The notes under the pieces were generated by a model. The model searched no databases and had not been told where the DNA came from. It saw only the letters and a list, made by a program, of their open reading frames with translations. A DNA stretch of 37,295 bases from positions 1 to 37,295 of the IMG/VR virus record IMGVR_UViG_3300050821_001609. One strand, written 5' to 3'. The position numbers and the translations under genes were made by a program. Positions 19,618 to 19,900 of the stretch are shown here, piece after piece (within the stretch, counting starts at the first letter, position 1; each line of letters starts with the position of its first letter). The stretch is from a virus.

Positions 19618-19900
19618 GGTACTACCCAAATCTCGCTGAGACGGATAGGGGTTAAGCGTTTCCCAACAAAAAGACGAACGCCAGAACATCTTATATACCG
19701 GACGGCCTTACGGCTGAACAAAGATGTTACGGAGAAAAGGGTACAAGCCACCTGCTTCAAGCCTAGAGAATCACGGGTATATCGGGCTAAGCTATCTAAT
19801 GGCTAAATAGATTCTGTTAAAAACGACGCTAATTCTAGATATCCGGGTATATAGACGAGGTCTGCTTAAATGCAAGCTAGGTGCTACCAGAATCTATATG
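19618..19900 (+). ncRNA. Candidate structured RNA in the divergent control region
   Basis: The stretch 19517-19950 has no supported gene. Reading the plus strand, several perfect inverted repeats nest: TCTC-GCT-GAGA (19631-19641); an H-type pseudoknot with GGG/CCC (19649-19651 with 19662-19664) and GCGTT/AACGC (19656-19660 with 19677-19681) and an A-rich third loop; AACATCTT/AAGATGTT (19685-19692 with 19721-19728) around a GCC-TTAC-GGC hairpin; and a 10-bp helix, ATAGATTCTG/CAGAATCTAT (19807-19816 with 19888-19897), closing AGAC/GTCT and GCTT/AAGC hairpins. CGGGTATAT occurs twice (from 19774 and 19844). I match it to no known RNA class. It could be a late-mRNA leader, a free ncRNA or a DNA-level control site. 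Confidence 0.5.

Follow-up and report, generated by a model that had tools for sequence, protein, structure and literature searches.

A candidate control region and late-mRNA leader at the early/late divergence of a phage genome

Does the gene-free DNA between the early and late genes of this phage encode a compact, pseudoknotted RNA of a new kind, as an earlier note had proposed for positions 19618-19900, or is it a control region followed by a leader of the late mRNA? The window, ie the whole stretch of 37,295 nucleotides that was analysed, has a direct repeat of 97 bp at its ends, as expected of a complete circular assembly; the repeat fits such an assembly and has no bearing on a packaging site at 19618-19900. 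Leftward early genes (DNA polymerase, primase-helicase, exonuclease) occupy approximately 8.6-19.5 kb, and the late genes, read rightward, begin at 19,951 and fill the rest of the record, continuing to 8.5 kb if the genome is circular. These two divergent blocks are separated by a gene-free gap, 19517-19950. As the earlier note had stated, no supported gene lies in 19618-19900: the flanking open reading frames start at 19516 (leftward, 52 aa) and 19951 (rightward). The stretch does sit at the early/late divergence, and the orientation of a late-mRNA leader, which that note had considered, is possible.

The first late gene (ORF_A, 19951-20322, + strand) encodes 123 aa of unknown function and has homologues in a close relative, L001, and in a sister clade. 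An upstream in-frame start at 19870, with a possible Shine-Dalgarno sequence, was rejected, as the homologues support 19951 instead. A likely small terminase subunit, assigned by position with a weak DUF5681 match below the cut-off, is encoded at 20640-20963 (+ strand), and the large subunit, which matches ordinary phage TerL families, at 20908-22347 (+ strand). These genes start about 690 and 960 nt past 19950, so the earlier placing of the stretch just ahead of the terminase genes holds approximately. Elsewhere in the window, a GC-rich hairpin followed by TTTCTTTTTT (8540-8585), located where the early and late blocks converge, is a likely terminator, and a further gene-free interval among the late genes (31345-31517, about 170 nt) contains several short repeats by eye. 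A scan for tRNA and tmRNA genes found none.

Helices and predicted folding

All eight helix arms given in the earlier note are present base for base, reading GGG/CCC, GCGTT/AACGC, AACATCTT/AAGATGTT and ATAGATTCTG/CAGAATCTAT. The stretch contains three perfect helices of at least 8 bp (10, 8 and 8 bp), compared with 0.37-0.43 in dinucleotide shuffles. The P values for this excess are 0.004 and 0.010, or 0.020 when taken over 19613-19950, and a helix of at least 10 bp has P 0.026 against dinucleotide shuffles. When 522 overlapping 283-nt segments of the same genome were compared, 8 held three such helices and 11 a 10-bp helix, and 19618-19900 was the only place with both. The enrichment in perfect helices is real but modest, and was noticed after the fact. 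In folding energy 19618-19900 as a whole is unremarkable (z -0.47 and -0.44 versus shuffles); in this region the + strand folds slightly better than its own shuffles (z -0.87) and the - strand worse (z +1.47).

The 8-bp helix (19685-19692/19721-19728, + strand) surrounds a CGGCC-TTAC-GGCTG hairpin and has a pairing probability of 0.5-0.7, depending on the flank folded. The 10-bp helix (19807-19816/19888-19897, + strand) closes small hairpins with a probability of 0.5-1.0, again by the flank folded, and its domain has z -1.79. Folding of a longer piece predicts a left domain at 19596-19806 (+ strand, z -1.47, pair probabilities mostly 0.8-1) with an interrupted closing stem, 19596-19637/19760-19806. 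The left edge at 19618 cuts this stem and was thus drawn too far to the right; the stem itself is matched by 24 of 200 shuffles and is not beyond chance. In the predicted fold the domain of the 10-bp helix (19807-19897) follows directly, and then a third hairpin at 19904-19959. A kissing pairing, 19692-19699/19846-19853, was dropped, its probability in nested folding being 0.05 or less.

The H-type pseudoknot proposed at 19649-19681 (+ strand) fares less well. Three such arrangements are seen where 2.8 are expected (P 0.40), and in nested folding the first stem has a pairing probability of at most 0.01; only the second, GCGTT/AACGC, is predicted (0.4-0.8), as a plain hairpin. The covariance models of Rfam 15 gave no match in the whole window at the gathering threshold, and none up to E 5 with relaxed thresholds in 19500-20400, which agrees with the earlier statement that the stretch resembles no recognised RNA class. 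A 2010 survey of structured RNAs (PMC2864571) contains no mention of terminase.

Conserved DNA, promoters and the first late start site

We give a probability of about one half to the reading that the stretch is a divergent control region and then the 5' leader of the late mRNA, an ordinary, fast-evolving leader and not a conserved RNA class. The DNA is gene-free, on the same strand as the first late gene and directly upstream of it. The gap is also syntenic in L001 (IMGVR_UViG_3300010400_000041; large terminase 73% and portal 85% identical), the only close contig in the viral collection that spans the slot: in both phages it is flanked on one side by the divergent early genes and on the other by a first late gene that is homologous between them. 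The L001 gap is of similar length and has no long open reading frame on the late strand.

Similarity between the two gaps is confined to 19547-19613 (45 of 67 aligned columns), with no clear shared sequence beyond about 19613. This block contains an early -35 element, the palindrome ATTGANNNTCAAT and TTAAAGA. The motif does not recur in the window and is absent from the viral contigs other than L001, and its single occurrence in the window rules it out as a repeated late promoter. The -35 element belongs to a leftward promoter at 19523-19551 (- strand), TTGACA-17-TACACT with TG before the -10; another leftward early promoter, TTGACA-17-TATAAT, matches the consensus at 12 of 12 positions (19312-19340, - strand). 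Leftward promoters were seen at the equivalent place in relatives, by eye. On the + strand, a scan of 19250-20000 revealed no rightward sigma70 consensus promoter.

If the leader reading is correct, the DNA at 19547-19613 would combine the -35 element of the leftward early promoter with a putative palindromic operator and probably a late promoter, and it is a candidate region for the start of rightward transcription, as judged from the sequence. With no good sigma70 promoter visible in the rightward direction, that late promoter would depend on a factor from the phage or its host. From its presumed start, the rightward transcript would then carry a leader of about 340 nt, whose local hairpins may modestly set the translation of the first late gene. 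The hairpin expected to matter most is that at 19904-19959 (+ strand), which encloses the Shine-Dalgarno sequence (AGGA, 19943-19946) and the start codon (19951) of that gene. This hairpin is more stable than nearly all of its shuffles (z -2.81, 3 of 300 as good), although it is one of several stretches tested, so that the P value is optimistic, and coding segments elsewhere reach about z -3.5.

Late operons of phages have ordinary 5' leaders with hairpins at ribosome-binding sites. The present region resembles them in position, in orientation, in being gene-free and in its local hairpins, one of them over the first start site; it differs in being unusually long for this genome, in having the perfect 10-bp and 8-bp helices besides the start-site hairpin, and in that its transcription start is a presumed one. 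Against the leader reading are these perfect repeats (P 0.004-0.02), which a featureless leader does not explain, and the + strand without a sigma70-consensus rightward promoter. If the leader reading holds, the finding reduces to an ordinary control region and leader, plus a predicted hairpin over the start site of the first late gene.

A live alternative, though an unlikely one, is that the repeats are protein sites in DNA and not stems in RNA, the stretch being either an origin of replication or a packaging start to which the small terminase binds. The terminase genes are downstream, the repeats are perfect Watson-Crick repeats without G-U pairs, and CGGGTATAT occurs within 160 bp as two exact copies and one inverted copy with one mismatch. 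There is in addition a 13-nt direct repeat, TAAGCTATCTAAT, with one copy in the leader (19788-19800, + strand) and a second inside the first late gene (19979-19991). Cumulative GC skew has its minimum at 19-20 kb, but that turning point coincides with the change in gene direction and is therefore confounded. Nor are the repeats kept in L001, and the 9-mer occurs in the genome about as often as expected by chance (9 matches versus 8.7). L001 has a 9-nt repeat of its own, with copies in the leader and at the start of the homologous gene, which may be chance. The packaging initiation sites pac and cos lie upstream of terminase genes, and the gap is like them in being gene-free DNA with repeats in such a place; it differs in that its repeats are not conserved in the relative, and it is a candidate site by sequence alone. 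The packaging-related RNA that the earlier note had suggested is, in the sense of phi29 pRNA, without support: the two are alike in lying near packaging genes, broadly speaking, whereas the window encodes a terminase of ordinary TerL families, not a phi29-type motor, and has no Rfam match.

Relatives and the structured RNA of the sister clade

Close relatives are few. Scans of the viral contigs with the terminase and with the full portal returned L001 and one distant phage and nothing more, a search of 84,980 bacterial and archaeal genomes returned no relatives, and deposited phages showed no DNA similarity to the window. Comparison of the two gaps with blastn gave no match, and a structure-based alignment of the two leaders scored z -0.44, with 77 of 120 shuffles as high; nor did the aligner find anything between the window and three gaps of the sister clade. 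The aligner was a sparse program written for the purpose, which handles nested structures, pseudoknots being outside its reach; on controls from the sister-clade RNA described below it gave z 3.6, 6.1 and 6.3 in three of seven pairs and weak or no signal in the other four. The helices are not visibly kept in the relative: the slot in L001 retains neither the sequence nor any detectable helix, an outcome that the earlier note had itself named as refuting its RNA, seen here in one very diverged relative. Such a relative argues against a conserved RNA class, and only weakly rejects an RNA specific to one lineage. Together with a pseudoknot at chance level and an ordinary folding energy, this leaves the reading as a compact, pseudoknotted new RNA not supported.

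The sister clade comprises approximately 25 contigs, several of them near 50 kb, with identities of 60-74% in the portal and about 30% in the terminase (portal sub-alignment); a further scan, using an alignment of 15 sequences, was nearly saturated. As a separate observation, in the window the portal, within 20908-24413, shows much higher identity to the sister clade (60-74%) than does the adjoining large terminase (about 30%), which suggests, from the sequences, that the terminase may have been exchanged between lineages.

In many sister contigs too the early/late gap lacks long genes, and in seven of them a structured RNA some 90 nt long, termed type 1, is present there on the late strand, in two subtypes. 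The copies are at L040 6228-6315, L054 5167-5254, L042 6248-6336, L026 1446-1533, L020 172-268, L047 5702-5780 and L049 4909-4998. In subtype a, four pairs change on both sides among its four sequences, with pairing kept in every cell; subtype b has seven such pairs among its three sequences, and its last helix is poorly kept. The assignment of both subtypes to one family rests on a similar layout and mixed pairwise scores, each model missing the other subtype. Type 1 has no Rfam match in the loci scanned and none, at blastn sensitivity, among 50,697 deposited phage records. Its members score 85-115 bits, being the sequences from which the models were built, whereas the best scores of the models R1 and R2 against the window are 0.9 bits, in 19500-20000, and -0.3 bits; in L001 (= L036) the models found no match, that of subtype a also with filters off. 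A genuine structured RNA thus occupies the slot in these cousins, and the leader of the window cannot be called a member of it.

Further features were noted in the sister loci. By eye, type 1 is often preceded by a terminator-like hairpin with a T run. Downstream of type 1 a second motif, type 2, recurs; as its structure reads by eye, TGTTGACGT is followed by a stem that varies in sequence and surrounds an inner part such as GAAGCGATAGCGA, and then by a closing strand (L040 6375-6454, L050 2551-2618, L049 5045-5108, L020 307-364, L032 703-774). Sequence profiles of types 1 and 2 do not reach the window. A late-promoter-like block, CTACGTTGnTTnAATAAACGAATATAACACACTTT, recurs just before the first late gene of the sister phages (L045 about 6325-6375, L050 about 2715-2770, L049 about 5230-5290, and other sister loci), with no obvious counterpart in the window.

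The sister clade bears on another explanation, which we regard as doubtful: that the stretch specifies a lineage-specific structured RNA, acting in cis or in trans, for example by enabling RNA polymerase to read through terminators of the late operon, and standing in the place of type 1, to which it would be unrelated or from which it would have diverged beyond recognition. The excess of perfect helices, the covarying RNA in the corresponding gap of seven sister contigs and the L001 leader, itself somewhat structured (3715-3940, z -2.9, 2 of 300 shuffles), are in its favour. Set against them are the ordinary energy and chance-level pseudoknot of 19618-19900, the absence of structural similarity to L001 or to the three sister gaps, the type 1 models and Rfam without a match, and a scan of 19250-20000 that found no terminator on which such an RNA might act. 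The region shares with type 1 the corresponding slot and the strand; it differs in that no match by sequence or covariance model and no shared structure was detected. The put element of phage HK022 and EAR are known RNA antitermination elements, and the stretch, like them, would sit in a leader at the head of a long operon, but with no Rfam match, no recognisable two-hairpin put layout and no target terminators identified.

A broader proposal, improbable on the present evidence, is that phages of this group maintain a rapidly evolving structured RNA at the early/late switch, 19596-19900 being the version of one lineage, which would do the work of type 1 (for example late-operon antitermination) by a different fold. 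If it were true that an RNA in this slot controls the late switch across the group, it would be an RNA-based device for the timing of phage genes. As it stands, the type 1 RNA of the sister clade matters more than the leader of the window itself, and it is that RNA and the unexplained 10-bp and 8-bp repeats which carry most of the remaining interest.

A possible mini-ORF and the leader of the relative

The conserved block can also be read as the beginning of a mini-ORF (19590-19655; M[IV][LI][VI]KDS[FY] in the two phages), which has no Shine-Dalgarno sequence. Ribosomes translating it might open the stem 19596-19637/19760-19806 and thereby change the fold upstream of the first late gene, a form of translation-coupled control that we consider very unlikely. 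Between the window and L001 the first eight codons differ only conservatively, in a frame read by eye; the 3' strand of the stem holds one copy of the 13-nt repeat, and the second copy, 28 nt into the first late gene, could be an alternative partner. Yet the mini-ORF lacks a Shine-Dalgarno sequence in both phages, the closing stem is at chance level, and the DNA upstream of the ATG is as conserved as the reading frame, so that a DNA element explains the similarity. The leader of L001 does contain another ORF, MKRLVSALDVWGRWAT, which has a good Shine-Dalgarno sequence and lies beside a strong hairpin, but this leader peptide is without a counterpart in the window.

In L001 itself that ORF starts at 3731, follows the Shine-Dalgarno sequence AAGGA and runs into the strong hairpin. 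The sequence that precedes its start codon should, by prediction, pair with a second Shine-Dalgarno sequence and start at about 3924-3934, and on this predicted fold the L001 leader (3715-3940) looks like a translational switch.
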